Source of the DNA: a virus
DNA length: 25,934 nucleotides
Virus record (IMG/VR): IMGVR_UViG_3300025057_000499
Span: 1 to 25,934 of that record
Strand: one strand, 5' to 3'
The translations under genes and the position numbers were made by a program. Under the pieces are notes generated by a model, which was given only the letters and a program-made list of their open reading frames with translations, was not told where the DNA came from and made no database searches. Each line of letters begins with the position of its first letter. Position 1 is the first letter of the stretch. Below are positions 2,559-19,624 of this stretch, piece by piece.

Positions 2559-3590
2559 TTAGAAATCTTGTACAAGCATTTTTGCTTGGAATGCGATCGG
2601 AGGTGCGCCAGACAGGAACTGCCAAGCTGATTCAGGATTGTTGTCCATAATCTTGCTGAAGTCACCCCAGAAGGTCCGACGTGCAGGCTCTTGACGACCA
2701 GGCGTTGGCATTGCTTGTTGAGGACGTTGGAAGCTAGGTGGTACTGCCCTACGTTCTTGTTGAGCAATTTCATTAGCAAACTGTTGTCTTGCTTGTTGTT
2801 GATTTAGTTGTTGTTCGTATGCTTCTAACCTGCGTGCCTCTTCATTAGTCAAGGTTGGATAAGGACCATCAGCACCAAAGAATCCATTGACATAATCTGC
2901 CAGAATATCTGGATCAGTCAACATAAGGTTCATTGCAGCACGCTCTTCGCTAGCAGCATCGAGCATTACATTCATAGACTGATTACGTCCTACCTGCTCA
3001 ATCAGTGCATCTTCTACTGCACAGGCATAATTATTAAGCAGTGCTGGTGCTTCTGAACCAAAGTGCTCAAGTACTTCTAATGAAACATCAGAAACTTGAC
3101 TTAGGTATGAATCAGGAGCGCCTCCGCCTTGTTGAATTTGTTGCAGAATCTGGGCCTGCTGCTGTCGTAGCAGCTGCTCCACTTCCGCCGTTGTATAGGC
3201 CTGGGTTGAAGCTTGCTGCGTATAAGTCGGCTGACCCTGGTTGGCCCATACCTGCTGAGGATGGGAAGCCCAACCCGCCTGGGTATTGGCCTGAGGCGTC
3301 GGTGTCTGATAAGCCGAGTACCGTGCCTGGGCTTGGGATGCCTGCGGCGTATTCAGGCTGGCGCTGAGAGCCTGAAACGCCTCCTGCCATGGATTCCCCG
3401 CCGAACCCTGCGGGGCCACCGCCTGCTGGTAAACCGGGGCCGCTGGGGCCTGGGCCGCCATTGCTGGCATCGGCTGCAAGGGTGACTGGCCGCTCGTCAC
3501 GAATTGGGAGGCCGAGCTTGGCGCGGCGGCGGTCGGCATCGCTGAGGGTGCTTGCGCGGTTGCCTGCATCGTCGGGACTGTACTTTCCAC
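2559..3590 (-). CDS. Probable capsid assembly scaffolding protein (N terminus overlaps portal gene)
   Basis: Scaffolds guide procapsid assembly and are usually lost before maturation. The protein is 343 aa if it starts at GTG 3590, or 336 aa from the in-frame ATG at 3569. Residues 1-160 are Ala/Gln/Pro-rich and probably disordered. Then comes a Gln-rich helix (AEVEQLLRQQQAQ), a helical core with LTDPDILADYVNGFFG and PYPTLTNEEARRLEAYEQQL (about 225-265), a Gln/Arg-rich linker and a C-terminal segment with WGDFSKIMDNNPE. Composition and position directly after the portal match scaffolds of T7-like phages; I did not align it to any. The first 479 bases lie inside the portal gene in another frame. 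A shorter form starting after the overlap is possible but would lose the Gln-rich helix. Confidence 0.65.
   Translation of the reverse strand: MESTVPTMQATAQAPSAMPTAAAPSSASQFVTSGQSPLQPMPAMAAQAPAAPVYQQAVAPQGSAGNPWQEAFQALSASLNTPQASQAQARYSAYQTPTPQANTQAGWASHPQQVWANQGQPTYTQQASTQAYTTAEVEQLLRQQQAQILQQIQQGGGAPDSYLSQVSDVSLEVLEHFGSEAPALLNNYACAVEDALIEQVGRNQSMNVMLDAASEERAAMNLMLTDPDILADYVNGFFGADGPYPTLTNEEARRLEAYEQQLNQQQARQQFANEIAQQERRAVPPSFQRPQQAMPTPGRQEPARRTFWGDFSKIMDNNPESAWQFLSGAPPIAFQAKMLVQDF
3112..3590 (-). other. 479-base two-frame overlap of portal and scaffold genes with a GC peak
   Basis: Both frames on the minus strand are open across the whole stretch; the scaffold frame begins one base after a portal codon start. 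By hand count the two lines 3361-3480 are about 70% G+C, against about 38-47% in lines on either side (2881-2940, 3661-3720). The portal frame encodes a Gly/Pro tail and the scaffold frame an Ala/Gln/Pro head. Confidence 0.7.
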
Positions 3591-5343
3591 TGTAACTTAA
3601 CTCCTTACGTAAAAACTCAAGTGATCTATATAAGAACCCTGTTATATCAAGGTTTGGATCAGCTGCTAACGGCTGATTTGGCATTTGTGGATGTGGCAGC
3701 TGATACAACTGACCTAACATTCCAATAAAAGTATTAAATGCTTGTTGTGACTGTTGAACCATCCTAAAAGGAAAGCCGGTCAACATAGCAGAGCGTTCTT
3801 CGTCTGTTTTGCTTGGAAAGAGATATTTAAGAGCTTCAATCGAATCGACACCTAATTCTTGCAGGTTTCTTACAACAATACTATTATTTAAAATGCCTTG
3901 CGAATCTTCTTCAAAAATGTCTCCGGTATAGCGCCAGTTTACTTTGCTATTACCATCAGGAATTAATCCAGTCACTCCCTGTGGGATTTGACCTGACTCC
4001 ATACTAGCATCAAATAAAGTCTTTCTCTGTTTGAGGTAGTCTTTCATTGCGACTTCATAAGTAGCTTGAGCATTTGAATACTCTTCAGGGGTTTCATAGT
4101 TTTCTTGAAGAGGAATTGTAGGTTTCTTCAATTCCATTGCTTGTGCAAATGATTCTTCAAACAAGTACTCTTCGTGTTGAACCATCATTGAAAGCAGTTT
4201 GCATAAACCAAAGTCAAATAATGCTTTTGCTTTTTTATCTGCTGTTGCTGAAACACGTCCATACAAAGACTTCATTTCATAAGCTGTAGATGCAGTTCCA
4301 ATATCAATGTCATCTACCCCACCAAGTGCAAGTCTAATTTCAGACCTGTATTGTTTGATGTATAAATTCTGATCACCACTAACTGCATCAGGTGTCATAT
4401 ATGAGACACGGTCAGTAGGTTCTAGGTTTGCAATTACCCTAGGTACTTTGATTTGACCATCAATACCAGCAGCACCAAAAGGTTGGCTAACACGTGTGCT
4501 TGGTCTTGAAGCAGGATCATAGAATCCAGCTTGCGAACTAATCGTTGGTTTAAATGCATTATCATCGCCACTATCAAGAATGTCGTGTTTTGGCCTGCTA
4601 GATACGAGCGTAGGATTACCAAAGAACTTCATATTCTTGCGAACATTTCGTACTAGTTCATCGTGATAAAGTATTTGATTTTGATATGCATCAAACTCAC
4701 CACTACCTGTTGCTTCTCCAGTACAGTCAAGATGGTTATAAACTTCAACAGCAGGAATAAATCCTAAGCTATTGGTCACTTCAGTTGTTTGCCCAGCTTG
4801 AGTTAAATTAGGCAACCCGTTGTGATTTTCAAATTCAATCTTTTCATCAGACAGTTGTTGCTCAATCCTGTCTTTATATACCTTTAGTCGTATATACTTT
4901 TTACGACCACCTCTTTTGTTTGGCTGACCAAACATATCCATCATACTTGGCTCTTTTACAGCAAAGCTATAGATAAGCTCAACGCTTGCTAAATTGCCAT
5001 TTTGATCTCTGTATGCACGGTAGCTGTCTTTAGGAAAATAGAATAATTGATAAATATCTCCTGATGGTCTGAAGTAGAATAAACCTTGACCGTCACATAA
5101 GAAGTAATCAATAATACTCTCAAGTTTCATCTCAAGCATATTATCTTCATATACTTTTTTTAGAAATTCTCCACGACCACCATAAGAATCTTGTTCACAA
5201 AAAAATTCAATCCCTCTTCGTAAAATAAACAAGCGCATCTGTGCTAAATGCGATTGCACGATCATTGTTTCTACAGGAGAATCTCCTCTCTTCTCCTTTG
5301 CAGAATCTAAAATTTCTTGAAATTGTGAGCTAACATTACTCAT
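3112..5343 (-). CDS. Portal protein (head-tail connector)
   Basis: The portal forms the ring at the capsid vertex through which DNA is packaged and ejected. This 743-aa product has a well-mixed globular body (about 1-580), including LESIIDYFLCDGQGLFYFRPSG (positions about 73-94), a putative clip/stem region near IRLALGGVDDIDIG (about 336-349) with the helical TAYEMKSLYGRVSATADKKAKALFD part following, and a C-terminal DADRRRAKLGLPIRDERP segment. The last 159 residues form a Gly/Pro/Ser-rich tail ending in RRRRS and overlap the scaffold gene. Length without the tail (about 585) is near usual portal sizes for short-tailed phages. Assignment rests on size, style and position between terminase and scaffold rather than on a diagnostic motif. 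Confidence 0.72.
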   Translation of the reverse strand: MSNVSSQFQEILDSAKEKRGDSPVETMIVQSHLAQMRLFILRRGIEFFCEQDSYGGRGEFLKKVYEDNMLEMKLESIIDYFLCDGQGLFYFRPSGDIYQLFYFPKDSYRAYRDQNGNLASVELIYSFAVKEPSMMDMFGQPNKRGGRKKYIRLKVYKDRIEQQLSDEKIEFENHNGLPNLTQAGQTTEVTNSLGFIPAVEVYNHLDCTGEATGSGEFDAYQNQILYHDELVRNVRKNMKFFGNPTLVSSRPKHDILDSGDDNAFKPTISSQAGFYDPASRPSTRVSQPFGAAGIDGQIKVPRVIANLEPTDRVSYMTPDAVSGDQNLYIKQYRSEIRLALGGVDDIDIGTASTAYEMKSLYGRVSATADKKAKALFDFGLCKLLSMMVQHEEYLFEESFAQAMELKKPTIPLQENYETPEEYSNAQATYEVAMKDYLKQRKTLFDASMESGQIPQGVTGLIPDGNSKVNWRYTGDIFEEDSQGILNNSIVVRNLQELGVDSIEALKYLFPSKTDEERSAMLTGFPFRMVQQSQQAFNTFIGMLGQLYQLPHPQMPNQPLAADPNLDITGFLYRSLEFLRKELSYSGKYSPDDAGNRASTLSDADRRRAKLGLPIRDERPVTLAADASNGGPGPSGPGLPAGGGPAGFGGESMAGGVSGSQRQPEYAAGIPSPGTVLGLSDTDASGQYPGGLGFPSSAGMGQPGSADLYAASFNPGLYNGGSGAAATTAAGPDSATNSTRRRRS

Positions 5344-6560: not shown

Positions 6561-8510
6561 TTAAAAGTTTGCTTGATTAGCAATTTGTTTTGTTTCATCT
6601 TTTGGTTTATTAGGTGAACCTGGGCTTGTAAAGTCAGGTGCTTGATAATTCCCATCAAACATATCGCCTAAGTAGTAGCCTTGCTGTGCTTGAGACATAT
6701 TCTGATAGTTTGCTGTGCTCATTCCGGCCATATTGTATGCATTCTGTGCAATCCCATTTGGCATCATATTGGCTTGTCCTGCCATTTGCATTGCACCAGC
6801 TGCGCTTGCATATCCATTCATTTGAGACTGAGATTGTGCAAACTGATTATTATTTAAAGCTTTGTAAGCTTCCATACCTTGCATATTTTCAAGAGCTGAA
6901 GATTGTCCAGGTCCGCTACCAAAGTTTTGAGCATTTATATTTACACCATAGTTGTTACCAAAGTTAGCACCAGGACCGAATGTACTGTTGTTGATGTCAA
7001 AGTTAAAGTCACCAGTATTGCCAAAACTATTATTTATATCTCCGTAACTCATATTGTTGTTACCAAAGATATTATTGTCGCTGTTTGTCAGTTGGTTACC
7101 TGAACCAGCACCACTATTGCCAGATTGGTTACCACTATTTGTCATAGTCGTATTATTGCTATTATTTGTACTATAATCTCTGTTGTCAGTTTGACTCAGA
7201 TTAGAATTCATTGAATTTGACATTGTATTGTCAATATTATTACTGTTGTTCATCGTAGAAGTCATATTATTACTATTAGAAGTAGTAACATTAGCACTTG
7301 TATTTCCGCTATTAGCGTAGGAAGTGTTATAGCTATCAGATGTATTTCCAGAATTAATCATATTGTTGCTGTCATTAGTACTTGCATCAGTGTTATAGCT
7401 ATCTGAAGTATTTGTGTTATAGCTATCATTAGTGCTCATATCAGTACTACTATTATCTGTATAGTATGAAGATGTATTCATACTGTCATTTATACTGTTG
7501 TCTGAATTGTCGTACTTGTTGTAGCTGTCAGTAGTAGTATTAGTCGTAGTATTCTGTGTATTTGTATTGAAGCTATCATCAATAGAACGCTGACTATTGT
7601 CGTTATAGCTATCTGTAACCCTATTATCACTTTGATCGTTATAGCTATTATTAGCATTCATACTATCGTTTATGCTTCTATTACTATTATCGTTATAGCT
7701 ATCATTAGTGCTTCTATTAGAGTTATCGTTTAAGCTATCAATAATTCTGTTGTCTGAATTGTCATTCAAGCTGTCGTTTATATTAGTGCTGTTATTACTA
7801 TTATCATTAGCACTATTGTTTAGGCTTGTATTGTAACTATCATTAACACTGTTATTGCTATTGTCATTAGCACTATTGTTTAGTGTTGTGTTTGTATTCA
7901 TACTATCGTTAATACTATTATTTGTATTCATACTGTCATTGATACTATTATTGCTGTTATCAGTGACTGTTGTATTGCCGCTGTTATTAATACTATTATT
8001 GTTATTGCTGTTATTGACGCTGTTATTGTTCATACTATCTTTTATAGACATTCTATATTGTGCTCTTTCTTTAGCTGCTTTTCTGACTTCTTCATCCTTA
8101 GATTTTCTATAAATTCTACCCCTTTTTACATTATTTTTCTTAAGAAATTGTTGTTGGTGGTATCCAACTTTATCGTCTCTTTTTGCCATATCTCGCGCAA
8201 TTTCATCAGCAGAGAATCCCATTCTCTGCAATTCACGCATATCTGCGACATTATACGTTTTACCAAAATCATAGTCGGCAATATTAGTTACCTGTTGACC
8301 TTTGATTACATCTTGACCTTTTTTCTGTACATTCTGACCAGTTTTTAAATATCGATCAGCTTGGTTTACTATCTGATTTGCTTTACGCTGATTAATAAGT
8401 GCTTTACCAGATATCCCCCCTTCAGAGTTTGCCATTCTATCAAACTTCTCTAATCGCTTTAAAGCCCGAGCTTTTTTCTTTTGGGCGTTCTTTTCACTTG
8501 TAAACTGCAT
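6561..8510 (-). CDS. Asn/Ser/Asp-rich repeat protein with one Gly/Asn module (649 aa)
   Basis: Not recognised. Residues 1-158 are basic and helical (KNAQKKKARALKRLEKF near the start; a GFSADEIARDMAKRDDKVGY segment at 98-117). Residues 159-457 are almost entirely Asn, Ser, Thr and Asp, arranged in degenerate units of about 12 residues such as NDNSNRSINDSM and NDNSNRSTNDSY. Residues 458-530 hold the Gly/Asn module (SGNQSGNSGAGSGN, GDINNSFGNTGD, STFGPGANFGNN). The C-terminal 120 residues are Gln/Met/Ala-rich. It lies directly after the large terminase, with only a 5-base gap. A fibrous or phase-separating virion component is a guess; ordered solenoid and disordered states both fit. No signal peptide is seen. 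Confidence 0.75.
   Translation of the reverse strand: MQFTSEKNAQKKKARALKRLEKFDRMANSEGGISGKALINQRKANQIVNQADRYLKTGQNVQKKGQDVIKGQQVTNIADYDFGKTYNVADMRELQRMGFSADEIARDMAKRDDKVGYHQQQFLKKNNVKRGRIYRKSKDEEVRKAAKERAQYRMSIKDSMNNNSVNNSNNNNSINNSGNTTVTDNSNNSINDSMNTNNSINDSMNTNTTLNNSANDNSNNSVNDSYNTSLNNSANDNSNNSTNINDSLNDNSDNRIIDSLNDNSNRSTNDSYNDNSNRSINDSMNANNSYNDQSDNRVTDSYNDNSQRSIDDSFNTNTQNTTTNTTTDSYNKYDNSDNSINDSMNTSSYYTDNSSTDMSTNDSYNTNTSDSYNTDASTNDSNNMINSGNTSDSYNTSYANSGNTSANVTTSNSNNMTSTMNNSNNIDNTMSNSMNSNLSQTDNRDYSTNNSNNTTMTNSGNQSGNSGAGSGNQLTNSDNNIFGNNNMSYGDINNSFGNTGDFNFDINNSTFGPGANFGNNYGVNINAQNFGSGPGQSSALENMQGMEAYKALNNNQFAQSQSQMNGYASAAGAMQMAGQANMMPNGIAQNAYNMAGMSTANYQNMSQAQQGYYLGDMFDGNYQAPDFTSPGSPNKPKDETKQIANQANF
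6921..7139 (-). repeat. Gly/Asn module in the 649-aa protein
   Basis: Residues 458-530. This is the third copy of the module found twice in the next gene downstream. The shared SGNQSGNSGAGSGN start and STFGPGANFGNN end are visible both in protein and partly in DNA. Confidence 0.8.
7140..8036 (-). repeat. Asn-rich repeat tract, about 12-residue units
   Basis: About 299 codons (residues 159-457) dominated by Asn, Ser, Thr and Asp. Repeats are degenerate, with unit lengths of mostly 11-12 and sometimes 18 residues. The DNA is about one third G+C (hand count of 7921-7980). Confidence 0.8.
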
Positions 8511-8515
8511 CGTAC

Positions 8516-10054
8516 TTAAAGGTGAAAACTATCTTGATTGTAATCTAATTGTAGCGAACCTCTACGCAATAGCCCTCCCATTGTTAATACCATACTATCT
8601 ACAGCGTCATCGTGAGGTGAATGACCAAAGTTAATTAGTTCGTCTTCTAAAATATTCCACTTCCGCCATTTGTTCCAAACAACTTTACCGTGCTCATACA
8701 AACCAAGCACTCCTCGTAATCGTGCTAACTTATCACCTTTAAATCCTTTTACTGGTGAACAGCTCAAGTTATATAGAGCACGGTTGTCAAACATTACTCG
8801 TTTAAAATCACCTTCAAATGATGACTGATAAGCAACTGCTTCTGGCCAAATAATGCAAGGTGACATTGTGGGAAAGTACTGGCCTTCATCGTTTTCTAAG
8901 ACAATATGCCAATCAGCTAACATTTCACATAATGTATCCATCTTCTCTAAATTGCCCATACTGCGTACACGCCTTTGGTCAATTAAATATATTTTTCCAT
9001 CTTTAATACCACCTAATGTAAATACAGTCCAGTCATTCTTTTCTGACAATCCTGCACTTAAGTCAATACCCACGCCTAAGCAGTCATACTCTTGTGGTAC
9101 TTCTCCTTTAATAATTAACTCTGGTGATATACCAACATCACTGGACTGTACTGCTGTATTTAGATACTGGTAAGCAAACGCAACACGGTCTTCCATCTTA
9201 CGTTCGTTTAAGTATTTCATCGACCAGAACTCTGGCCAATACGAACGTTGCCTACCTTCGGCGTCTGTTATGACTGCTTTCTGAATGATTTGTTTCCAAT
9301 TGTTTTTGGGGATAAATAAAGTTGCGTGGATGTCGTCGAAATGGAATCGGGTACCCAGACAGATGGCCCGTGCACCTTGGAACATAGTAGGTGCAATGAC
9401 ATTGGACCATGTCTGTTCCATCTCCCTTCTAATGTCAGGATTGTTGATGGATGCAGCGGATTTAATAGGGTCATCGATAAGCACCAATTGCGATCTTTTT
9501 GATGTAATTGCTCCCTTGAGACCTCCACATGCAATGGTGAAAGCTTCTTCACCCGCCGTATCAATGCCTGCAAAGTCATAGTCAATGCTCCAGTATTCAT
9601 CACTTCGTTTTATTTTTGACAGTCTAACCATAGGAAAGATTTCTCTATATTTATTAGATGTAAGAATTCCTTTAATTGTCGCAGACTTTGCTCGACTAAT
9701 GTCAACCATATACGCAATATATAGAATACGAAGCATCTGCTTTGCAGCTGTATGTCTACCAATCATCCAAGCGGCAAACAATCCAAGCACTGTTGATTTA
9801 GCAGAACCACGTGGTGCAAGGATTGCTGTATTAGGCCCGCCAATGCCCATTAAACATTCACTATCTTCTCCTGTACATAATTGACTGTGCCATTCCAACA
9901 TATGCTTTGCTGGCGGTTTACCCATCAATGTACAGAATGCTTGAAAGTTATCTCTTGCTTCTAATACTTCTGGCGAAGGTGCCTTGACAGTTACCTTTGT
10001 GGCTTTCATCAAAGCCGTGCGTTTATACGCAAGTGCAATACTTGGAACTGCCAT
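8516..10054 (-). CDS. terL: Terminase large subunit (packaging ATPase and nuclease)
   Basis: Pumps DNA into the procapsid through the portal and cuts concatemers. The 512 residues carry an N-terminal ATPase with Walker A LAPRGSAKST (79-88) and Walker B QLVLIDD (189-195), followed by the LGTRFHFDD coupling region (233-241). The C-terminal RNase H-like nuclease has GVGIDLSAG with D331 and the late acidic motif HDDAVD (481-486). All key acidic residues are present and the length is normal for TerL. The gene is followed after 5 bases by the 649-aa gene and preceded by a 93-base gap with an unusual repeat structure. The Walker A and nuclease motifs fit the T4/T7-type terminase superfamily; the packaging strategy cannot be read from sequence alone. 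Confidence 0.96.
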   Translation of the reverse strand: MAVPSIALAYKRTALMKATKVTVKAPSPEVLEARDNFQAFCTLMGKPPAKHMLEWHSQLCTGEDSECLMGIGGPNTAILAPRGSAKSTVLGLFAAWMIGRHTAAKQMLRILYIAYMVDISRAKSATIKGILTSNKYREIFPMVRLSKIKRSDEYWSIDYDFAGIDTAGEEAFTIACGGLKGAITSKRSQLVLIDDPIKSAASINNPDIRREMEQTWSNVIAPTMFQGARAICLGTRFHFDDIHATLFIPKNNWKQIIQKAVITDAEGRQRSYWPEFWSMKYLNERKMEDRVAFAYQYLNTAVQSSDVGISPELIIKGEVPQEYDCLGVGIDLSAGLSEKNDWTVFTLGGIKDGKIYLIDQRRVRSMGNLEKMDTLCEMLADWHIVLENDEGQYFPTMSPCIIWPEAVAYQSSFEGDFKRVMFDNRALYNLSCSPVKGFKGDKLARLRGVLGLYEHGKVVWNKWRKWNILEDELINFGHSPHDDAVDSMVLTMGGLLRRGSLQLDYNQDSFHL

Positions 10055-10156: not shown

Positions 10157-10444
10157 CCATGCACGCCGACGTTCTGCTAGTTTTTGTGCTCTTCTGTTCA
10201 TTTCCCCTGCACGCATAGCAGCTATTGCATTTTGTCTACGTGTTATTTCATATGCAATACGCATTGCTTCTGCAAATCTAGCCGCTTCTATTGCACGTGG
10301 ACTGTAGCCAAGTAAACTTTCAGTATTTATAGTTGGAAGCCCTGGAAGTTGTGGACGTGTAATTGCCTGTGCAGCATATGCACTTAGACTTTGGTCAATA
10401 ATTTCCGGTAATTCAGGTAAAGGAGGTGGCGGTGTAATAAACAT
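10148..10444 (-). CDS. Hypothetical 98-aa protein between terminase genes
   Basis: Not recognised. I place the start at ATG 10444, which overlaps the stop of the preceding gene as TAATG, rather than at the GTG at 10477, because the same coupling is used at other junctions of this block. The N terminus is Pro-rich (PPPPLPELPEI), the middle has PQLPGLPTINTESLLGY, and the C-terminal half is a basic, Ala/Arg-rich helix ending in RRRAWWR. The strongly basic helix could bind DNA or an acidic partner. Position between the possible small and the proven large terminase subunit suggests a packaging accessory, without direct evidence. Confidence 0.65.
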   Translation of the reverse strand: MFITPPPPLPELPEIIDQSLSAYAAQAITRPQLPGLPTINTESLLGYSPRAIEAARFAEAMRIAYEITRRQNAIAAMRAGEMNRRAQKLAERRRAWWR

Positions 10445-10977
10445 TAGGAGCTTACTTCGCTGTACACTTTTGCCCATACAGCAGACATTGCATTTTCAAT
10501 AGGCTCTGCAAACTGTGGGTCATCTTTAAATATATTAGTAAGTTCTCTCATCACACGATCTGCTCCAGCAAGAATTAATCCACGCTTATCAGTTGTTTTG
10601 TTTAAACGTTCTGAGACCTCGATATGTGACCTCAGTTCTTTCTCTAAAGCTGCTAGACGTGCTGCACCATTGTCACCTTTTATCTCACCGCTGGTGACAG
10701 CCATACGTAGATCTTGAATGTCTGAATGAAGTGCAGCAATTTCACTGTTTAAAATTTCTCGTCTGTTCAACTTCTTGAACTTCATCTTTACCCATCTAAC
10801 TAAATCGTTAAATGTTCCTGGATATTGCATAATGCCTGCATACACCCATATTTCAATAACTGATGGTGTGTATTCAGCAAACTCTTTAAACTGTTCGCTT
10901 TCAGATGCTGGTAATGTATCAAGCCACTCGTCTACATAATTTAAATAGACTTTACCTGTTTTAGTTGCAGTTTTCAT
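10444..10977 (-). CDS. Possible terminase small subunit
   Basis: Small terminase subunits recognise the viral DNA and hand it to TerL. This 177-aa protein has a mixed N-terminal domain (about 1-75, with YVDEWLDTLPASESEQF and a basic VRWVKMKFKKLNRRE helix), a charged helical hairpin or coiled coil (about 75-130), and a C-terminal helical part with GADRVMRELTNIF. Length and order (DNA-binding-like part, then oligomerisation helices) and its position two genes upstream of terL suit a small subunit. Both ends overlap neighbours as TAATG, showing translational coupling. No family motif clinches the call, so another head-assembly role is possible. Confidence 0.45.
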   Translation of the reverse strand: MKTATKTGKVYLNYVDEWLDTLPASESEQFKEFAEYTPSVIEIWVYAGIMQYPGTFNDLVRWVKMKFKKLNRREILNSEIAALHSDIQDLRMAVTSGEIKGDNGAARLAALEKELRSHIEVSERLNKTTDKRGLILAGADRVMRELTNIFKDDPQFAEPIENAMSAVWAKVYSEVSS

Positions 10978-13900
10978 TAGAACATTCCTGCCAGTCCTCT
11001 GGCGTACTTACTTTGTCTGCTAGCTGTCTTATCTTCTTCTTTAGTCTTCTGAATCATATTCTTGCGCTCTTCTGAACCTGTTGCACCAATTTGATCAAGG
11101 GCGTTCTTACTCTTCTTGTCTTGCAACTGTAAATCAATACCGCCTTGTGCCTGGATTTTGCTGACATCAACTTTACCTTGATCTCCAATCTGTTCTCTTG
11201 CTTGCACACCTTTAAGCTTCTGCAGTGCTTGATCAATTGCACCTTGTGCGCCAATCTGGCTTATTGCTCCTTTCTGCTTTATGTTTTCAATGCCTTTATC
11301 AATTTCACCCTGAGCTCCAATTTTATCGAGGTCTATTTGACCCTGATCTCTAATTTGATCAAGCGCTTGATTACCCTTTATTCCTTGAAGGATTTGATCC
11401 ATTGTCCCTTGTTCTTTAATCTGTTTAACTGCTTCTAGACCCTGTGCTCCAATTTGATTGAGCGCTCCACTTTCTTTCATTGCTTGCAGTGCTTTATCAA
11501 TATCACCTTGTTCAAGAATCTGATCAATTACACCTGCATCTTTTAACTCCTGTAGAGCTTGCTCGTTAATTCCAGACTCTTTAATCTGTTCAATTGCTTG
11601 CTTACCTTTGATACCTTGCAATTGTTGATCTAAATTACCTTGAGCTTTAATTTTTGCAATATCTACTGTACCTTGATTTCTAATCTGATCAAGTGCTTGT
11701 AATCCTTTTTCAGATTGTAGCCATTGATCAATTCCACCTTGTGCCAGTATCTGAGAAACTGCACCTTGGTCTTTTAGTGTTTGTAATTGTTGATCATTTA
11801 GTCCAGCAAGTCTTAACTGTTCAATAGCTTGTTGACCTTTGACACTTTGCAGGTCTTTATCAATACTGCCTTGTGCACCAATCTGCTGAAGTGCCTGTTC
11901 GCCTTTAATGCTCTGCAGCTGTTGATCTGAGGTACCCTGAGCTTTAATCTTGGAAATATCTACTGTGCCTTGGCCTCTAATCTGCTCAAGTGCTTGTAAA
12001 CCTTTTTCAGATTGTAGCCATTGATCAATTCCACCTTGTGCCAGTATCTGAGAAACTGCACCTTGGTCTTTTAGTGTTTGTAATTGTTGATCATTTAGTC
12101 CAGCAAGTCTTAACTGTTCAATAGCTTGTTGACCTTTGACACTTTGCAGGTCTTTATCAATACTGCCTTGTGCACCAATCTGTTCTAAGGCTTGTCCTCC
12201 TTTGATATTTTGTAACTGCTGGTCTAAGGCACCCTGAGCTTTAATCTTGGAAATATCTACTGTGCCTTGGCCTCTAATCTGCTCAAGTGCTTGTAAACCT
12301 TTTTCTGATTGCAGCCATTTGTCAATTCCACCTTGTGCCAATATCTGAGAAACTGCACCTTGATCTTTTAGTGTCTGTAATTGTCTGTCATTTAAACCAG
12401 CAAGCCTTAACTGTTCAATAGCTTGTTGTCCTTTTGCACTTTGTAAGTCTTTATCAATGCTGCCTTGTGCACCAATCTGTTCTAAGGCTTGTCCTCCTTT
12501 GATATTTTGTAACTGCTGGTCTAAGGCACCCTGAGCTTTAATCTTGGCAACATCTACTGTTCCTTGACTTTTAATCTGATCAAGAGCTTGTCTACCTTTC
12601 TCAGATTGCAGCCATTTCTCAATGCCGCCTTGAGCGATTATCTGTGAAATCGCACCTTGGTCTTTTAGTGTTTGTAATTGTTGGTCATTTAATCCACTTA
12701 GTTTTAACTGTTGAATTGCCTGTTGGCCTTTTACACTTTGCAGGTCTTTATCAATGCTGCCTTGCGCTCCAATTTGTTGCAACGCTTGTTGACCTTTCAT
12801 ACCTTGCAAGCTTGTATCAATCTGTCCTTGAGCAGTGATTTTTTGAATATCAATTTTGCCAGATGCACCAATTTGTTGCAGAGCTTGTTGGCCTTTCTCA
12901 GATTGCAACCATTTCTCAATGTTGCCTTGTGCACCAATTTGTTGTAGTGCCCCGCTGTCTTTTAACTTCTGCAAGTCTTGGTCATTTAATCCTGCGAGTT
13001 TTAGCTGATTCAATGCTTGCTGACCTTTAATACCTTGTAAGGTTTGGTCCAGCATTCCTTGCGCTTGAATTTTACTTAGGTCAATATTTCCTTGAGCACC
13101 AATCTGCTGAAGAGCCTGTTGTCCTTTCTCAGACTGCACCCACTTTTCAACACTACCTTGCTCTCTAATCTGTGCAATAGCTCCAGTATTTTTCAATGAT
13201 TGAAGCTGTTGATCATTTAATCCGGCTACTCTTAATTGTTCAAGAGCTTGGTCACCTTTAATGTCCTGTAGTTTTGCATCTACGCTACCTTGCGCTCCAA
13301 TCTGCTGCAGTGCTTGACTTCCTTTGATGTTCTGCAGATTAGCTTCTTGTGCTCCCTGAGCTCCAATCTGCGCAAGTGCTTGATTACCTTTTAGTCCTTG
13401 CAGTGCAGTATCTAGCTGACCTTGAGCTTTTAGTTTTGCTAGATCAACATTACCCTGACTTTGAATCTGAGCTAATGCCTGCTGACCTTTTTCAGTATTC
13501 AACCATTTCTCGATACTGCCTTGTGCACCAATCTGTGCAAGTGCTCCACTGTTTTTTAAGGTCTGAAGCTGTTGATCATTTAATCCGCTTGCCTTTAACT
13601 GTTGCAGCGCTTGCTGACCTTTTGTATCTTGCAGGCTTTTTTCAATTGAGCCTTGAGTAGCAATCTTATCTAGGTCAACTTTACCCTGTGCACCAATCTG
13701 CTGAAGAGCTTGTTGCCCTTTCTGGCCTTGCAGGAACTGTTCAACACCACCTTGAGCAGTAATCTGATCGAGCGCACCAATGTTCTTTAACTTCTGAATT
13801 TCAGTATCATTCAGACCTGATTGCTTTAACTGCTCAATTGCACCTTGATTTTTCTTGTCTTGTAATGATTGCTCTATTGCACCTTGCTCTTGTAGGTTAA

Positions 13901-14459
13901 GTCTATTTTGCTCACCTTCTAACTGAGTTTGGTTTTGTAAAATATCACCTTGGAATGCAAGTTTTGTTAGTTCTCTATTTGCATCATCTGTTGCGAATTT
14001 ACTTTGCAGATCATATTCTGTACCTAGTTTCGCCATTCCATAATTAAACTCTTGCTGCATAATGGATGATTGATTTCCCAGCTCCAAGGCAGCGGCCGTC
14101 ATCATCTGTTGATTAGATATTGCAGCATTGTCGTAGGCCAGTTCTTTGGCCATTTGATTATTAAAAATAGAAGACGCTAAATCAGCTTCAAACGCTCTTT
14201 TGATTTCAGTACCAGCAACATCATCAGCATCTGGTGTCCAGTTATAAAATCCCTCTAAGACACTAGCAGCATTAAATAGACCACTAGAAATTTGAGCATT
14301 GGTGCTCGTTCCATTAGCAGTTGGTGCAGGCGTTTGAGTCCCATTTGAGCCTTGTGCAGGCGGAGCCTGTGACAATTCTTGTACTTCAGGTTTTGCAAGA
14401 AGTTCGTTTACTTGCTCTGAACTAAGTGTTGTACCATCTGCTAATGTGACAGTCGCCAT
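10977..14459 (-). CDS. 1160-aa protein made of 85 tandem 11-residue repeats
   Basis: Not recognised as a known family. Residues 1-60 are polar and disordered; 61-190 are helical and Ala/Gln/Asn-rich. From 191 to 1125 the protein divides into 85 units of exactly 11 residues with no insertion or deletion. The usual pattern is x-[QK]-G-x-[ILQ]-[DA]-x-x-[LI]-x-x, for example AQGSIDKDLQS and VKGQQAIEQLR. A basic tail ends in GLAGMF. Eleven-residue periods fit hendecad coiled coils or long amphipathic helices, although a Gly in nearly every unit could also support a solenoid. The stop overlaps the next start as TAATG. A long rod, an internal core protein or a tail-length-like protein are guesses. 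Confidence 0.85.
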   Translation of the reverse strand: MATVTLADGTTLSSEQVNELLAKPEVQELSQAPPAQGSNGTQTPAPTANGTSTNAQISSGLFNAASVLEGFYNWTPDADDVAGTEIKRAFEADLASSIFNNQMAKELAYDNAAISNQQMMTAAALELGNQSSIMQQEFNYGMAKLGTEYDLQSKFATDDANRELTKLAFQGDILQNQTQLEGEQNRLNLQEQGAIEQSLQDKKNQGAIEQLKQSGLNDTEIQKLKNIGALDQITAQGGVEQFLQGQKGQQALQQIGAQGKVDLDKIATQGSIEKSLQDTKGQQALQQLKASGLNDQQLQTLKNSGALAQIGAQGSIEKWLNTEKGQQALAQIQSQGNVDLAKLKAQGQLDTALQGLKGNQALAQIGAQGAQEANLQNIKGSQALQQIGAQGSVDAKLQDIKGDQALEQLRVAGLNDQQLQSLKNTGAIAQIREQGSVEKWVQSEKGQQALQQIGAQGNIDLSKIQAQGMLDQTLQGIKGQQALNQLKLAGLNDQDLQKLKDSGALQQIGAQGNIEKWLQSEKGQQALQQIGASGKIDIQKITAQGQIDTSLQGMKGQQALQQIGAQGSIDKDLQSVKGQQAIQQLKLSGLNDQQLQTLKDQGAISQIIAQGGIEKWLQSEKGRQALDQIKSQGTVDVAKIKAQGALDQQLQNIKGGQALEQIGAQGSIDKDLQSAKGQQAIEQLRLAGLNDRQLQTLKDQGAVSQILAQGGIDKWLQSEKGLQALEQIRGQGTVDISKIKAQGALDQQLQNIKGGQALEQIGAQGSIDKDLQSVKGQQAIEQLRLAGLNDQQLQTLKDQGAVSQILAQGGIDQWLQSEKGLQALEQIRGQGTVDISKIKAQGTSDQQLQSIKGEQALQQIGAQGSIDKDLQSVKGQQAIEQLRLAGLNDQQLQTLKDQGAVSQILAQGGIDQWLQSEKGLQALDQIRNQGTVDIAKIKAQGNLDQQLQGIKGKQAIEQIKESGINEQALQELKDAGVIDQILEQGDIDKALQAMKESGALNQIGAQGLEAVKQIKEQGTMDQILQGIKGNQALDQIRDQGQIDLDKIGAQGEIDKGIENIKQKGAISQIGAQGAIDQALQKLKGVQAREQIGDQGKVDVSKIQAQGGIDLQLQDKKSKNALDQIGATGSEERKNMIQKTKEEDKTASRQSKYARGLAGMF
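11085..13889 (-). repeat. 85 in-phase 33-bp units encoding an undecapeptide repeat
   Basis: Codons 191-1125 of the 1160-aa gene. I wrote out all units by hand; the 11-residue register never breaks. Unit classes recur in order, such as [AQGGIDQWLQS], [EKGLQALEQIR], [GQGTVDISKIK]. Confidence 0.9.
11704..12891 (-). repeat. Four 297-bp higher-order periods (nine 11-mers each)
   Basis: The anchor coding QSEKG recurs at 11704, 12001, 12298, 12595 and 12892, exactly 297 bases apart. By eye the first 182 bases of the periods at 11704 and 12001 are identical, while their tails match other copies, a mosaic typical of recent duplication and conversion. Further out the spacing changes to 231 and 363 bases, still multiples of 33. 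Confidence 0.85.
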
Positions 14460-14534: not shown

Positions 14535-15572
14535 ATGGCACCTAATGTTAATAACTGGGCTCGGGCTGCTCAAGTAGTCACTAGTCAAAATACAGCAATT
14601 AGAAAAAAGTTAGCTGATGATAAACCTAGGTACGATCGAATAGGTCAAGCGTCAGTTCAAGCTGCAGCTAAGAATGCAGTTAATGTTGCAGAAAATAATG
14701 CAAGTACTGCTGATACTGCTATCCAAGCAGAAGCTTTGATGCGTAAAACTAAAATTGGAATTGATGAAGATAAGAAAACTAGAGGTTTTGAAAAGAAATC
14801 AAAGATGACTGGAATGTTGGCAGGTGGTGCTGCACTAATTGGTTATGGCGCTATGAATTTAAATAAGAAAGAAGAAGCTGATCCTATGCTTGCGGCAGTT
14901 AAAAAACAAGTTGATATGTATGGAGACAGAATTAATAAGGCCAATGCAGATATTACTAAGGCTCAAGACTTAATTGATAGGCTTAAAAATACAAAAGCTG
15001 GTGACACTAGCTCAAATACACCTAGCTCAAATACACCTAGCTCAAATTCATCTACTGGTAAAAATTCGGACTCCAATCAAAGTTCCGGGTCTGGTCAATA
15101 TGCTGGATTGCAAGGAGGTGCCAAAACTCTTGCTGACGCTATTGCTAGATATGAGTCTGGTAGCTGGGGCTACGAAGCATTTAACCAAGGTGGCGCTGCT
15201 AGCGGCAGAAAAGTACTGGGCAAGAGTGGTTCCTATAAAGAACAGATGGGTGGTCGCAGTCTTACTGATTTGAGCTTAGGTGAAATCTTCGATAAACAGA
15301 ATACAAAAGCTAAAGGTATGTCAATGGATGAGCACATCAAATCAGGTGGGCTGCACGCTGTTGGTCGCTATCAATTTATTGGTAGCACTTTGCAAGACGA
15401 AGTTAGCAGAATGGGACTATCACTTGATACTAAATTTACTCCAGAAATCCAAGACAAGATATTTTTGAATCACATAAAACGTGTTGGTGATATAAGTCCT
15501 TGGGTCGGACCTTCCGATAACTATAGTGAATCAGAGAAAGCCAATTTCCGTAATATCATTCAAGGGCTTTAA
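14535..15572 (+). CDS. Virion-associated lysozyme/lytic transglycosylase-domain protein
   Basis: Probably cleaves peptidoglycan, at genome entry or at lysis. Residues 1-110 contain an Ala-rich helical domain with DDKPRYDRIG and NVAENNASTAD, then a hydrophobic Gly-rich segment (about 91-108). A helix (111-155) and a Ser/Asn/Thr linker made of a 15-bp repeat (about 159-173) follow. Residues 190-345 resemble lambda R-type lysozymes in order of motifs: AIARYESGSWGYEAFNQGG with candidate catalytic E207, GLHAVGRYQFIG (272-283) and FTPEIQDKIFLNHI (301-314). The N-terminal domain is shared with the 119-aa protein at 17542-17901. It is the only plus-strand gene in the late block, and its stop overlaps that of the convergent neighbour by 4 bases. 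Confidence 0.78.
   Translation: MAPNVNNWARAAQVVTSQNTAIRKKLADDKPRYDRIGQASVQAAAKNAVNVAENNASTADTAIQAEALMRKTKIGIDEDKKTRGFEKKSKMTGMLAGGAALIGYGAMNLNKKEEADPMLAAVKKQVDMYGDRINKANADITKAQDLIDRLKNTKAGDTSSNTPSSNTPSSNSSTGKNSDSNQSSGSGQYAGLQGGAKTLADAIARYESGSWGYEAFNQGGAASGRKVLGKSGSYKEQMGGRSLTDLSLGEIFDKQNTKAKGMSMDEHIKSGGLHAVGRYQFIGSTLQDEVSRMGLSLDTKFTPEIQDKIFLNHIKRVGDISPWVGPSDNYSESEKANFRNIIQGL
15007..15050 (+). repeat. Tandem 15-bp repeat, about three copies
   Basis: CTAGCTCAAATACAC repeats at 15007 and 15022, with a partly changed third copy from 15037. It encodes a Ser-Asn-Thr-Pro linker before the lysozyme domain. Confidence 0.85.
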
Positions 15573-16297
15573 ATAGTAAACGCAGCACCTAAGTTTCCTA
15601 AACCGTTCAATAAAGCTAATAAAGCTTTTTCTCTTTTGTCTTCTCTACGATATCTGTCGTTAGCAGCTAATTCAGCATACTTTAGCTGCAAATTCATTTG
15701 ATTTGTTTCTGCAGTAAGTCGTCTATTTTCAGCACGTTCTAAAGAAGCCCTAGCTTCCTTTTTTTCTTCTTTTAAATCTTGCTGATCAAGAAGGCCTTTA
15801 TTATATAACCTAGTTTCTTTTAGATCATCTTTTGATTCATCACGTCTTCTCTTATATTTTTTTTCTTCCTGCTCTCTTACTTGTCTTTGAGTTTCAGCAT
15901 AAATTGCTTCTGGTGTTGTAAATTTATTAGGATCAACAATCGCGCCTTGCTGTCCTGACGTTTGTAGCGCAGTCTTAATAGCTTGATACTTAGGTGTCAA
16001 TAAATTGACTGTCTGCTTCAGTTTATCGGCATTTGTATCTTTAGTAATTGTAGGTACATTTAACCCTGGTACAGTGCTAAGCTCTTTCAGCGTTGTACCG
16101 TATGTATTTTCTAGTTCGTCTACATATTGTTTCTCTACTTCCCTATCAATTGCAGCGCCTCTGCCTGTAATAAAATCTCCAAGATAATCTCCAAGATCTT
16201 TTTTACGTCCTCTTCCAGGCTTGTATTCAGAGAGTTCGCGTTCTGCGTTTTCTTCTACTGTTCCAAACAGCAAATTATTAATCATTTCTCTAGGCAT
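15569..16297 (-). CDS. Hypothetical coiled-coil protein with hydrophobic C terminus (242 aa)
   Basis: Not recognised. Residues 1-55 are basic and Gly-containing (KPGRGRKKDLGDYLGDFITGRGA). Residues 56-130 look globular. Residues about 130-222 are a long, highly charged helix rich in Glu, Lys, Arg and Gln (VREQEEKKYKRRRDESKDD and onwards), very likely a coiled coil. The last 20 residues turn hydrophobic (LLALLNGLGNLGAAFTI), like an amphipathic or membrane-touching helix. The start overlaps the upstream gene's stop as TGATG, while the stop overlaps the convergent lysozyme-domain gene. An internal or ejected virion protein is a reasonable guess. Confidence 0.75.
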   Translation of the reverse strand: MPREMINNLLFGTVEENAERELSEYKPGRGRKKDLGDYLGDFITGRGAAIDREVEKQYVDELENTYGTTLKELSTVPGLNVPTITKDTNADKLKQTVNLLTPKYQAIKTALQTSGQQGAIVDPNKFTTPEAIYAETQRQVREQEEKKYKRRRDESKDDLKETRLYNKGLLDQQDLKEEKKEARASLERAENRRLTAETNQMNLQLKYAELAANDRYRREDKREKALLALLNGLGNLGAAFTI

Positions 16298-16860
16298 CAG
16301 AACATTCCCCCACCTTGTAACTGTTGCAGCGCTAGTTCCATTTTACGTTGTTCTGGTGTTTTCTTATCACCAAACAACCACTGTGCGCCATCACTGACGG
16401 CTTTACCTAGACTTGCACCGGCAGCTATACCAATTGGGCCTCCAGCAGCTCCTAAGAAGCCACCAATTCCCATTGCTGCAGTATCCATTGCTTTGTTGCC
16501 AATACTGTCATCTCCAAGCACAATATCGCCTGCACTCAGTAGTGCACCAGCAGCACTCAAGCCTGGAACAACTCTAAGTGCTTGTCTTACTGGAGCACTG
16601 CTTGCAAATCTAAATGCAGAATTTTTAGCTACACCCGGAACCATAGATCCAAGTTTGCCTAGGCCTCTTTCTAGACCCATCTGAGTATTTCTGTCAGCTC
16701 CAAGCAAAACTCTTCCAATGCTGCCTGGTGCTTGGTTATAAGCAAAGCCGTTAATTGCATCACCAGCTGCTACACCATAACCAAGTAGGTTATCTAAAAT
16801 ATTAGGTCCCGGTTCTGGAGCTACGCTGTAATAACTTCTTGGTACTAATGATGAATTCAT
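16297..16860 (-). CDS. Gly/Ala-rich hydrophobic virion-type protein (187 aa)
   Basis: Not recognised. After a short N-terminal region with NILDNLLGYGVAAGDAINGF (20-39), residues 92-115 (RQALRVVPGLSAAGALLSAG) and about 126-152 (MDTAAMGIGGFLGAAGGPIG and on) form Gly/Ala-rich hydrophobic stretches with glycine spacing typical of packed or pore-forming transmembrane helices. A charged tail TPEQRKMELALQQLQ follows and the protein ends in GGGMF. The same ALRV-P-L start and a TP-charged helix end are seen in the 162-aa protein at 19136-19624, suggesting distant paralogy. The start overlaps the S74 gene stop (TAATG). A membrane-active protein used in DNA ejection is inferred, not shown. Confidence 0.7.
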   Translation of the reverse strand: MNSSLVPRSYYSVAPEPGPNILDNLLGYGVAAGDAINGFAYNQAPGSIGRVLLGADRNTQMGLERGLGKLGSMVPGVAKNSAFRFASSAPVRQALRVVPGLSAAGALLSAGDIVLGDDSIGNKAMDTAAMGIGGFLGAAGGPIGIAAGASLGKAVSDGAQWLFGDKKTPEQRKMELALQQLQGGGMF

Positions 16861-17516
16861 TACCGAACCTCTACTAATGCGTTTTTGGCTTCCATACGAG
16901 TAACCCTTGATTCAAGTTGTTGTACTCCTCGCACAAGTAGTGCGATTAGTTCGCCAGTGTCGATGCACAAACGGTCCAGGCTATCATCATAGTAAGTAGC
17001 AGCAGGTAGAACCTTCGCATATTCTTGAGCGATGAATCCGTTATGAATACGTTCTGGATTTGAACTATATTCTTCATTGTAATAGTAAGTGACTGGCTTT
17101 AATTGACGCAATGTTGAAAGTGCATCGTCAATATGTTCAATTGTATTTTTTGTACGCTCATCACTTAATAGAACTGAACCCAATAAGCCAACTCCTGCTT
17201 TAACAACACTTCCAAATTGTGATCCAGCCGCTTGTTCTCTTGCAGCTTGTACTCTTGCTTCTGCAGCAATTTCTGTTGCCTTTACATTAGCTGTTTGTGC
17301 AATTAATGAATTCCTGACTTTTGTATTTGCATCCCTAATTCCTCTTTCTTCATATCCTGCAGCATCAATATTAGTAGCTGCCATTCCACCCCAATCAGGC
17401 TTTTTTAATGCAGCAAATGTTTCTGCAAGTGTTGAGTTTCCAGCAGCCGCTGCTCCTCCTTGCATCTGTCTTGCATTTCTAAAATCAAACTCGCCTGTTG
17501 GCTGAAATGGTGCCAT
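16860..17516 (-). CDS. Small protein with C-terminal S74 intramolecular chaperone domain
   Basis: S74 domains trimerise phage fibre or spike proteins and then usually cut themselves off. Here residues 118-218 carry SDERTKNTIEHIDDAL, LKPVTYYY, NGFIAQEYAKVLP and a final coiled coil (LIALLVRGVQQLESRVTRME), a clear match to the family pattern. The Ser-Lys pair expected for self-cleavage is present as S118 and K123. The N-terminal 117 residues are unusually short: a polar start, KKPDWGGMA, an Ala-rich helix (60-97) and a hydrophobic Gly-rich segment (103-117, SVVKAGVGLLGSVLL) just before the predicted cut. This layout resembles the 119- and 345-aa proteins more than a fibre. The ribosome-binding site AGAGG lies before ATG 17516. 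Confidence 0.85.
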   Translation of the reverse strand: MAPFQPTGEFDFRNARQMQGGAAAAGNSTLAETFAALKKPDWGGMAATNIDAAGYEERGIRDANTKVRNSLIAQTANVKATEIAAEARVQAAREQAAGSQFGSVVKAGVGLLGSVLLSDERTKNTIEHIDDALSTLRQLKPVTYYYNEEYSSNPERIHNGFIAQEYAKVLPAATYYDDSLDRLCIDTGELIALLVRGVQQLESRVTRMEAKNALVEVR

Positions 17517-17541
17517 TTGTTTTAATCAACCTCTTTGTATT

Positions 17542-17901
17542 TTAACTAAAGGTATTGCGTGAATTCCAGAAATCATATCCAAAACCACCACTTGAAGTAC
17601 TTGATCTAAAGGCACTTCTAATGCTTGGGCCTAAACCACCGACAGCTCCAGCAATTCCTGAAACCGCACTTGTTTGACCTTGTAAGCTGCCAATTTCTCT
17701 TGCAGCATCCGCATTTGCTTCTGCCGATGCAATTGCTGCTTTGCCTCTTAGAACAGCATCGGCAGTTGAAGCATTATTTAAAGCCACGTTGACTTCATCT
17801 TGTGCGGCATTTATTCTTGATTTTATTCCAATCTTATCGAAAGAAGGTTTGTCGTCAAGAAAACCTGCAATGCTAGTCATTCTATCTGTAGCAAATCTCA
17901 T
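17542..17901 (-). CDS. Ala-rich helical protein sharing a domain with the lysozyme-domain protein (119 aa)
   Basis: Family not known to me, but residues 15-70 clearly match the N terminus of the 345-aa lysozyme-domain protein: DDKPSFDKIG here and DDKPRYDRIG there, VNVALNNASTADA here and VNVAENNASTADT there. After this comes an Ala-rich helix (GKAAIASAEANADAAREIG), a Gly-rich hydrophobic stretch (SGIAGAVGGLGPSI, about 81-94) and an aromatic end (FGYDFWNSRNTFS). It may be the stand-alone version of a virion-targeting or assembly domain. It lies 25 bases before the S74 gene and 29 bases after the 401-aa gene. Confidence 0.78.
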   Translation of the reverse strand: MRFATDRMTSIAGFLDDKPSFDKIGIKSRINAAQDEVNVALNNASTADAVLRGKAAIASAEANADAAREIGSLQGQTSAVSGIAGAVGGLGPSIRSAFRSSTSSGGFGYDFWNSRNTFS

Positions 17902-17930
17902 TTTGGTTTACTAGTAGTCCTTTTAGTTTA

Positions 17931-19136
17931 TCAATATTGAGTTCTATTTAATTCGTTTTCTTCTTGATTGCGACGTCTGCGTTCACCTTCAATTAAATTA
18001 CCGCCGATTTGTCCGACTGCTAATCCGCCAAGTCCTCTTATGATTCCTTGTTTAATTGGTCTATTTGTAGCAACTCCTGACATACCGCCAGCTAGTGCGG
18101 CACCGAACGGTACTAACCCTGTATACACAGGCAGACTACGACCTAAGAACTGTACCTCTGGTCCTAATATTCCTTCATTTGTGTACTTCAGAATACCAGC
18201 AGGTGCAACAACTTGGCCGTCGTCAAATGGATTTAAATCAAGACTATTGTCGTATTTAAATGCTTGATATGCTCTGTACTCTTGAGGGCTAACATCTGGC
18301 CTTACTTGACTAAATTCATCATATGGCAATAGATTGCCGGTTCTTCCTAAGAAATATTTTGAAGCTATTTCCGCAAGAACATTTTCAGTTTTAGTCGGGT
18401 CTTCTTCACTAGGTACTGCTGCTTTAAAACCTTCAGTACCACCAAACGGTGACATCAATCCTAAGCCTGTATTGATAGCTATACCAGTCGGAATCAATAA
18501 TGCTGCTTTATCACCTGGCTCAAAGTTTCTTTTAAATAGCGTACCATCGTCATCAAAGCTATATCCTTTTTTAGGCAGTAGTCTTTTACCACTTTGATTT
18601 ACATATTCAGAAGGTATGCTATCTGGATATCTGTAGTTGTATTTTTGACCTTCAGGGCCTATAACAGGGCTTCTACCATATAGCTCCTTAGGAGTTCCCT
18701 TTTGATTTTTATTTGCTAAAGCTAAGGCTGATTCAGCAATAACATTACCTGTCGCTTGCGCTGCATTAAGAAGCCAATAAAAGTTGCGCGTCACATCTTG
18801 TGTTAAGTCCGCAGCTACAGTTCCTGCAATTTGACCTGAACGAGCGGGTACACCTGTTTTGGGTCCAAGACCTAGGTCTCTCCTAATTTGCCTTTTTTGA
18901 CGAATTTCTTTAGACAGCTCTCTCCCGCTTATATCATCTACTAATTCTTTAAGCCTTACGCCCGTTGGATAAGCACCAGACATTTCATTTATTCTTGGTG
19001 CATCCTCTGACTTATTTAAAGACTTGCGACCTTCACGATATGAACGTGTCCATTCCTCACGGCCTTCACCGTACGCATCTTTGAATGCATCTTTAAATGC
19101 ATCAAATGCTCCAAGCTTTCCAGCTTTCTTGACCAT
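17931..19136 (-). CDS. Hypothetical 401-aa protein with several hydrophobic segments
   Basis: Not recognised. Residues 1-90 are highly charged, with a repeated AFKDAFKDAYGEGREEW helix. Residues about 100-142 form a helical, partly hydrophobic stretch (RNFYWLLNAAQATGNVIAES). A globular, Tyr/Pro-rich middle (150-205) contains YGRSPVIGPEGQKYNYRYPD. Further hydrophobic segments lie at about 208-228, 336-355 (VYTGLVPFGAALAGGMSG) and 364-382, before a basic end (EGERRRRNQEENELNRTQY). It probably touches or crosses a membrane at some stage, or forms a buried bundle in the capsid. The start is coupled to the 162-aa gene stop (TAATG). An ejection or internal core function is inferred from neighbours. 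Confidence 0.75.
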   Translation of the reverse strand: MVKKAGKLGAFDAFKDAFKDAYGEGREEWTRSYREGRKSLNKSEDAPRINEMSGAYPTGVRLKELVDDISGRELSKEIRQKRQIRRDLGLGPKTGVPARSGQIAGTVAADLTQDVTRNFYWLLNAAQATGNVIAESALALANKNQKGTPKELYGRSPVIGPEGQKYNYRYPDSIPSEYVNQSGKRLLPKKGYSFDDDGTLFKRNFEPGDKAALLIPTGIAINTGLGLMSPFGGTEGFKAAVPSEEDPTKTENVLAEIASKYFLGRTGNLLPYDEFSQVRPDVSPQEYRAYQAFKYDNSLDLNPFDDGQVVAPAGILKYTNEGILGPEVQFLGRSLPVYTGLVPFGAALAGGMSGVATNRPIKQGIIRGLGGLAVGQIGGNLIEGERRRRNQEENELNRTQY

Positions 19137-19624
19137 TACGCAACTCCCATACCTGTCGTTGGATCCATAACATATTGCTCACGTGTACCTGGTATTAATC
19201 CGTATTGAAAAAGCATTTCGTTTTTCATTTGTTCTGCAAGTTGTTGCTGTTGCTGAACACTCATCTTTTCATATGGTGTGAGTCCTTGACCTCCCATTAT
19301 TAAATCCTTTCCACGCATAATAGAATCACCTAGATACATTCCACCAAAGTCACCACCAATACTTCCTCCCATATCAGCTAAGTTCTGAAGTGCTGCATTC
19401 CCTCCCACTCTTTTTACTAGTCCAGCAGCAGCAGAACCTCCAATTAAAGAAGGCACTGCAGTAGTAAGACCTGCGATAGCTTTATCTCCAAAGTCTCCAG
19501 GTGTTTGTGCAGCAGCTAATCCACCAAACGCTAAGTCAGGAAGAACTCTCAGTGCAACTTCGGCCTTAGTAGAGCCCATATTGTTCTTCAAAAATTTGAG
19601 GGCATTCCCTGCTAATCTAATCAT
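19136..19624 (-). CDS. Gly/Ala-rich hydrophobic virion-type protein (162 aa)
   Basis: Not recognised. Residues 20-110 are Gly/Ala-rich and hydrophobic (ALRVLPDLAFGGLAAAQ, IAGLTTAVPSLIGGSAAAGL, MGGSIGGDFGGMYLGDS). A TPYEKMSVQQQQQLAEQ helix and a Gly/Pro/Met-containing tail follow. It resembles the 187-aa protein at 16297-16860 in the ALRV-P-L opening, a GDKA/GNKA motif about 20 residues later, and the charged Gln-rich helix beginning TP. The start overlaps the 123-aa gene stop as ATGA. Likely a second member of a set of hydrophobic internal virion proteins; the function is not demonstrated. Confidence 0.72.
   Translation of the reverse strand: MIRLAGNALKFLKNNMGSTKAEVALRVLPDLAFGGLAAAQTPGDFGDKAIAGLTTAVPSLIGGSAAAGLVKRVGGNAALQNLADMGGSIGGDFGGMYLGDSIMRGKDLIMGGQGLTPYEKMSVQQQQQLAEQMKNEMLFQYGLIPGTREQYVMDPTTGMGVA

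Follow-up and report, generated by a model that had tools for sequence, protein, structure and literature searches.

What does a phage protein do that is composed largely of eleven-residue repeats and was found without any family match? The window considered here, a stretch of 25,934 nucleotides (IMG/VR record IMGVR_UViG_3300025057_000499), is part of the genome of an S-EIV1-like (short-tailed) cyanophage, and the gene in question consists of the following parts.

10977..14459 (-), entire gene of the repeat protein, 1160 aa; nearly all of 105 loci have a homologous ORF in this position
14283..14459 (-), residues 1-59, N-terminal tail of low complexity, variable among relatives in both length and sequence
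13890..14282 (-), residues 60-190, conserved N-terminal domain (G-x-FNF...FYNW...DD-AG...NRLN), from the family alignment and an iterated HMM
11085..13889 (-), residues 191-1125, 85 eleven-residue units with no indel, from the translation
11583..12789 (-), super-repeat of nine units (297 nt, 99 aa) in four recent copies, found by TRF at 87% match
10980..11084 (-), residues 1126-1160, basic C-terminus with last residues YARGLAGMF; Arg-rich ends occur across the lineage
10977..10979 (-), stop codon, sharing a 1-nt overlap with the ATG of the next gene; 70 of 71 relatives are alike

The ORF at 10977-14459(-) is considered real because homologues occupy this position throughout the lineage, and its translation reproduced the 85 consecutive gap-free 11-mers at residues 191-1125 reported by the sequence-only reading; one extra unit, ATGSEERKNMI, follows them. 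The Gly that had been noticed at unit position 3 is present in 72 of the 85 units, compared with a best-phase maximum of 23 (mean 15.7) when the same residues were shuffled 2000 times and the best phase was scored, and the Fourier period of Gly in the repeat is exactly 11.00. Leu/Ile near positions 5 and 9, also claimed earlier, holds for some units (42% and 44%) and fails in the remainder. The units belong to two largely alternating types, AQGxI(D/E)xxLQx (hydrophobic at positions 1, 5, and 9) and xKGxQA(L/I)xQ(I/L)x (hydrophobic at 6/7 and 10), accompanied by other types such as LAGLNDQQLQT and GQGTVDISKIK. Nine units make up the 99-aa super-repeat, which in DNA forms an array of 4.1 copies. 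The 935-residue repeat region is devoid of Pro, Cys, His, and Tyr, contains 21% Gln and 12.5% Gly, and has a net charge near zero (96 K+R, 104 D+E), with Gln/Asn concentrated at unit positions 5, 9, and 2. Across the repeat-protein family, the unit consensus by position is A/T-Q-G-E/A/D-Q-D-R-L-N-I-x.

Profile searches of Pfam, PHROGs, and PDB uphold the absence of a match between the window protein and any known fiber or tape-measure family; more generally, it has no Pfam, PDB, or isolate-phage match, and its PHROG matches are to low complexity only. The Pfam domains HlyD_D4, SapC, and AbiEi_4 and four small PHROGs were rejected as artefacts of repeat composition, and an ankyrin similarity in PDB (E 0.0019) was likewise rejected (33 = 3 x 11 plus common Gly spacing). 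PHROG 5158, a family of unknown function, matches the repeats of two distant relatives (L047, E 2.7e-14; L119, E 8.6e-11) but not the window protein, and these matches may be driven by composition. A tblastn search of 50,697 phage records with the protein, its N-terminal domain, several relatives, and the repeat block, in which BLAST low-complexity filtering may hide repeats, gave no match, except that the 82-aa protein of S-EIV1 matched S-EIV1 itself.

The affiliation of the window is evident from its 743-aa structural protein, which has 45-47% identity to the counterpart in S-EIV1 (KJ410740); related genes were found on 27 further IMG/VR contigs with conserved gene order. S-EIV1 is listed as a podovirus (PMC9382816), and S-EIV1-like phages (gOTU G238) are estimated to contribute 3.3% of the ocean cyanophage signal (PMC5332604), although most of their virion is still without assigned proteins. 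Using the conserved 177-aa neighbor of the repeat gene, we collected 105 viral loci. In nearly all of them the ORF directly upstream of the 177-aa gene corresponds to the repeat gene and is usually 11-residue periodic; three contigs end before this place, and several other ORFs are truncated. The family set comprises 71 complete distinct ORFs of 170-1165 aa, a few of which (e.g., L094) may be N-terminally interrupted. The best self-match lag (tested from 4 to 30) equals 11 or 22 in 67 of the 71. The strict repeat phase first described for the window protein extends to about 71 relatives. The iterated HMM of the N-terminal domain matched all 71, and nearly all end in a short Arg-rich C-terminus, usually (Y)AR-x-x-A(R/G)-x-F or similar. 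The repeat gene is thus a lineage-wide hallmark of S-EIV1-like phages.

Length in this family changes in steps of 11. Raw whole-ORF lengths were uninformative because the N-terminal tails vary, and a near-invariant Arg of the N-terminal domain, present in 69 of 71 proteins, served as the anchor. The distance from this anchor to the C-terminus, ranging from 75 to 999 residues, equals 11n+9 in 39 of the 71 complete ORFs; counted by distinct lengths, this is 23 of 50 (binomial about 1e-10, a significance overstated by the relatedness of the rows). Other subclades keep a phase of their own, namely 5 mod 11 (10 proteins) and 1 mod 11 (7 proteins), and in the closest clade a single phase is kept by 18 of 18 sequences over 12 distinct lengths and with different anchors. 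The number of units per protein varies from about 6 to 90, and since both odd and even counts occur, the single 11-mer is favored as the unit over a 22-residue hairpin or coil; a beta-solenoid with 22-residue coils is disfavored on the same grounds. Turnover of length is very fast relative to the neighbor genes: relatives whose 177-aa genes are 94-98% identical at the nucleotide level have, for example, 19, 35, and 44 units. Such changes are explained by in-register recombination of 33-nt units, of which the 297-nt array in the window is an example. Off-phase indels are rare even where the repeats have diverged, which may point to selection for register, although the same recombination can partly conserve the phase without selection. 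A step fixed at 11 residues suggests a rod that has to keep its two ends in alignment. The family represents a natural experiment, with 71 natural proteins having fixed ends and about 6 to 90 same-length units between them. If the phase rule reflects rotational register, structure becomes readable from length alone, and the question is which virion dimension varies so widely within one lineage.

One family member (L131, NYTN01000033) lies on a contig binned in a metagenome-assembled genome of the alphaproteobacterial Rhodobiaceae; a GTDB scan for the N-terminal domain returned this contig only, which is probably a stray, misplaced phage contig.

At the place of the repeat gene, before the 177-aa homologue, S-EIV1 encodes a protein of only 82 aa (KJ410740 52823-53071) in which roughly two 11-mer-like units (ESGAQERETIG KGATEQRTSAE) can be recognized; its basic C-terminus reads YGQSQRAYRY, in contrast to YARGLAGMF in the window protein. 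A match to the N-terminal domain was sought in this 82-aa protein and not found; place and style suggest that it may be orthologous to the repeat gene. Just upstream of the 177-aa homologue, S-EIV1 has three tandem small ORFs (L002 12483-13072), apparently interrelated, and a tblastn query with the 82-aa ORF reaches all three.

Two AlphaFold2 models were run with family alignments. The helical nature considered earlier is weakly supported in that both models are all-helical, but their confidence is low (pLDDT 59 and 57). The N-terminal domain was modeled mostly as one long helix (model residues 22-154, pLDDT mostly 60-78, under 50 near model residues 120-134). In the second model, LND-type units are helices of about eight residues interrupted at Gly, and breaks at Gly occur in both models. 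A plain amphipathic 11-residue helix, whether LEA/synuclein-like or a one-seam hendecad, does not fit the hydrophobic moment, which is not raised at 95-100 degrees; hendecad coiled coils and LEA/synuclein-like helices had been named earlier as known cases of eleven-residue periods. In the window repeat it peaks at 120 degrees (z 14.8); in several simple relatives it is depleted at 100 degrees (z about -1 to -5) and peaks near 135 or 160. By the same test, the phiX174 H hendecads peak near 105 degrees and the LEA consensus at 100. LEA group 3 11-mers (and amphipathic helices such as alpha-synuclein) are likewise polar 11-residue repeats containing Gly, but the repeat-protein family does not share the 100-degree peak, a comparison that covers LEA only. 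Of the features of a canonical hendecad coiled coil, the strict indel-free phase is observed and the single seam at 11/3 residues per turn is not. Judged from sequence, the 160-degree peak may fit either a helix with two opposite faces (the second harmonic of 11/3) or beta alternation, and we favor the helix given the phase rule and composition. A straight helix of 935 residues would, by arithmetic only, span 140 nm.

A solenoid, formed either by a beta strand I-x-A-x-G-x-V with D-x-x-N turns or by one Gly-broken short helix per unit, would accommodate the 160-degree moment and the depletion at 100 in simple relatives, the short Gly-broken helices of the second model, and the weak ankyrin alignment. 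It is nevertheless improbable: an 11/3 helix with two opposite faces would likewise give the 160-degree signal, as its second harmonic, odd and even counts speak against two units per coil, the repeat composition favors helix, and the ankyrin match is of spurious grade, with no Pfam ankyrin match to the window protein.

The gene order conserved in relatives, which includes structural and packaging genes, supports the earlier placement of the gene in a phage structural region. It runs from small membrane-like proteins plus an S74 protein, through lysozyme (on the opposite strand in several relatives) and the repeat gene, to the 177-aa gene, large terminase (TerL), portal, and sigma factor. The main neighbors in the window are as follows.

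10444..10977 (-), next gene, 177 aa, about 77-91% identity across the lineage and 37% to S-EIV1
8516..10054 (-), large terminase TerL (phrog_38, E 8.7e-70)
3112..5343 (-), portal-like virion structural protein, the lineage marker (phrog_20475; S-EIV1 match 45-47%)
14535..15572 (+), lysozyme/endolysin-like gene, divergent neighbor (phrog_1200, E 9.4e-10)
15569..19624 (-), cassette with, among others, small Gly/Ala-rich proteins that resemble membrane proteins (187, 401, and 162 aa), by sequence inspection; order kept in relatives

Position alone makes the 177-aa protein a probable small terminase, as it has no PHROG match, and the portal identity of the 3112..5343 product is suggested by inspection of its sequence and place. 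The 187-, 401-, and 162-aa proteins of the cassette may be regarded as candidate injected or internal virion proteins.

From the conserved order, the 1-nt overlap, and the podovirus listing of S-EIV1, a rod at the packaging/delivery vertex is favored, and we tentatively propose that the repeat protein is a virion rod of this vertex with the 11-mers as length-adjusting spacers. The protein would be a mainly helical, virion-associated rod of S-EIV1-like short-tailed cyanophages, perhaps a continuous helix and an oligomer, whose conserved N-terminal domain and basic C-terminus would each bind a fixed partner, most probably at the vertex for DNA packaging/delivery. Each 11-residue unit would be a spacer of whole helical turns (11 residues = 3 turns), so that its gain or loss by recombination would alter reach without introducing twist between the two ends. 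The likeliest use would be as part of an internal or ejection apparatus carrying DNA through the cyanobacterial envelope. The place of the gene between the lysozyme and membrane-like cassette on one side and the packaging genes on the other agrees with such a rod, as do the conserved ends, the 11-residue phase kept between them, the lack of Pro and Cys in the repeat, the helical models, and the absence of an adhesin-type C-terminal globular domain. Against it stand the low AlphaFold2 confidence and a moment unlike that of a one-seam helix, at least as far as these predictions go, and the fact that a straight 140-nm rod would neither fit in nor sensibly reach from a small virion. Against the delivery role in particular, the gene is coupled to packaging genes and lies outside the ejection-like cassette.

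Known delivery proteins offer partial parallels. The DNA pilot protein H of phiX174 has Gln-rich hendecads and is part of a DNA-translocating helical tube (PMC7354561). Gln-rich 11-residue repeats in a phage protein are common to both, but H, from an unrelated ssDNA phage, has only three hendecads followed by heptads, and its moment near 105 degrees has no counterpart in the repeat protein; no match to H was found when the family profile and the repeat region were searched against PDB sequences. The H-type tube is decameric and helical with an amide-lined lumen; in the repeat protein, Gln/Asn are concentrated at unit positions 5, 9, and 2. It is hardly probable that a new class of two-faced 11-residue helix makes a tube or bundle that forms or lines the conduit for DNA delivery in a dsDNA phage, its length evolving in exact three-turn steps (about 6-90 units) while both ends keep their register. 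T7-type gp14, gp15, and gp16 are similar in the proposed role and in the lysozyme and membrane-like neighborhood, but no homology of the family to T7-like ejection proteins was found in PHROGs. Nor was 11-residue periodicity found in P-SSP7, Syn5, Pf-WMP4, HTVC010P, or HTVC019P (positive control, 59 of 71), and the ejection proteins of these five podoviruses therefore provide no precedent; the Syn5 horn proteins gp53, gp54, and gp58, checked for their near-terminase place, gave the same negative result.

The order of preference among the remaining readings puts delivery slightly ahead of packaging, with fiber and ruler behind. As a partner of the packaging machine, the protein would be co-translated with the 177-aa protein and would assemble or position the packaging complex, the repeats being a tolerated spacer; this reading is suited by the 1-nt stop/start overlap and by the fact that the 177-aa, TerL, and portal genes are always close neighbors of the repeat gene. 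It is unlikely, however, as overlapping genes are common in phages, the 177-aa protein is well conserved while the repeat protein varies up to sevenfold in length, and the terminase identity of the former comes from position, with no PHROG match. T4 fibritin and P22 gp26 exemplify coiled-coil shafts fixed at one end, and an external fiber, head whisker, or tail needle of this kind, with a variable shaft attached to the virion, would explain the fixed ends around a variable shaft and a length turnover very fast relative to neighbors. We give such a fiber little credence. No trimerization domain and no C-terminal receptor-binding or chaperone domain was found in the protein, in which 35 basic residues follow the repeats; these roughly 35 residues are conserved where a host-binding tip should vary; and the S74-type tail-fiber-like gene is separate.

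Eleven-residue repeats and length variation occur in some siphophage tape measures, including the Pfam TMP repeat, and a ruler, in which repeat number would set the length of a tail or tube, had been among the functions first suggested for the protein. Length in exact 11-residue quanta between conserved ends is what such a ruler would show, but the window protein matches no tape-measure family in Pfam or PHROGs, its units lack a conserved W/F, and no tail-tube gene was recognized nearby. A long-tail ruler is unlikely given that S-EIV1 is listed as a podovirus and has the 82-aa version only.

Several neighboring genes have features of their own. The lysozyme-like protein (14535-15572(+)) and a 119-aa protein (17542-17901(-)) have a common N-terminal motif (46% over 54 aa, E 2e-10), perhaps a virion-targeting or docking segment, to judge by its sequence. 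The Peptidase_S74 (endosialidase chaperone) domain resides on a very short protein of 218 aa (16860-17516(-)) and not on a long tail fiber. The S-EIV1 TerL (L002 14081-16621) contains an intein-like insertion, about 300 aa long and running from CLVGDTMVLTNHG to HNFIANGFNVLNC, that is absent from the window TerL. Between TerL and portal, the products of 5377-6549(-) and 6561-8510(-) have a common Gly/Asn-rich domain (58% identity over 73 aa), which is present in two copies in the 390-aa protein, and the 649-aa protein has an additional long Asn/Ser-rich (NNSINDSMNT-like) stretch. In relatives this is a second repeat-prone slot, where an ORF (L012 3-1277, L013 1988-3316) carries 14-residue AKKAERAKRVKASE-type repeats flanking Asn/Gly-rich domains. 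Finally, immediately downstream of the structural genes lies the gene for a full-length sigma-70-type factor (564-1505(-)), which is conserved in the lineage (63-88%).
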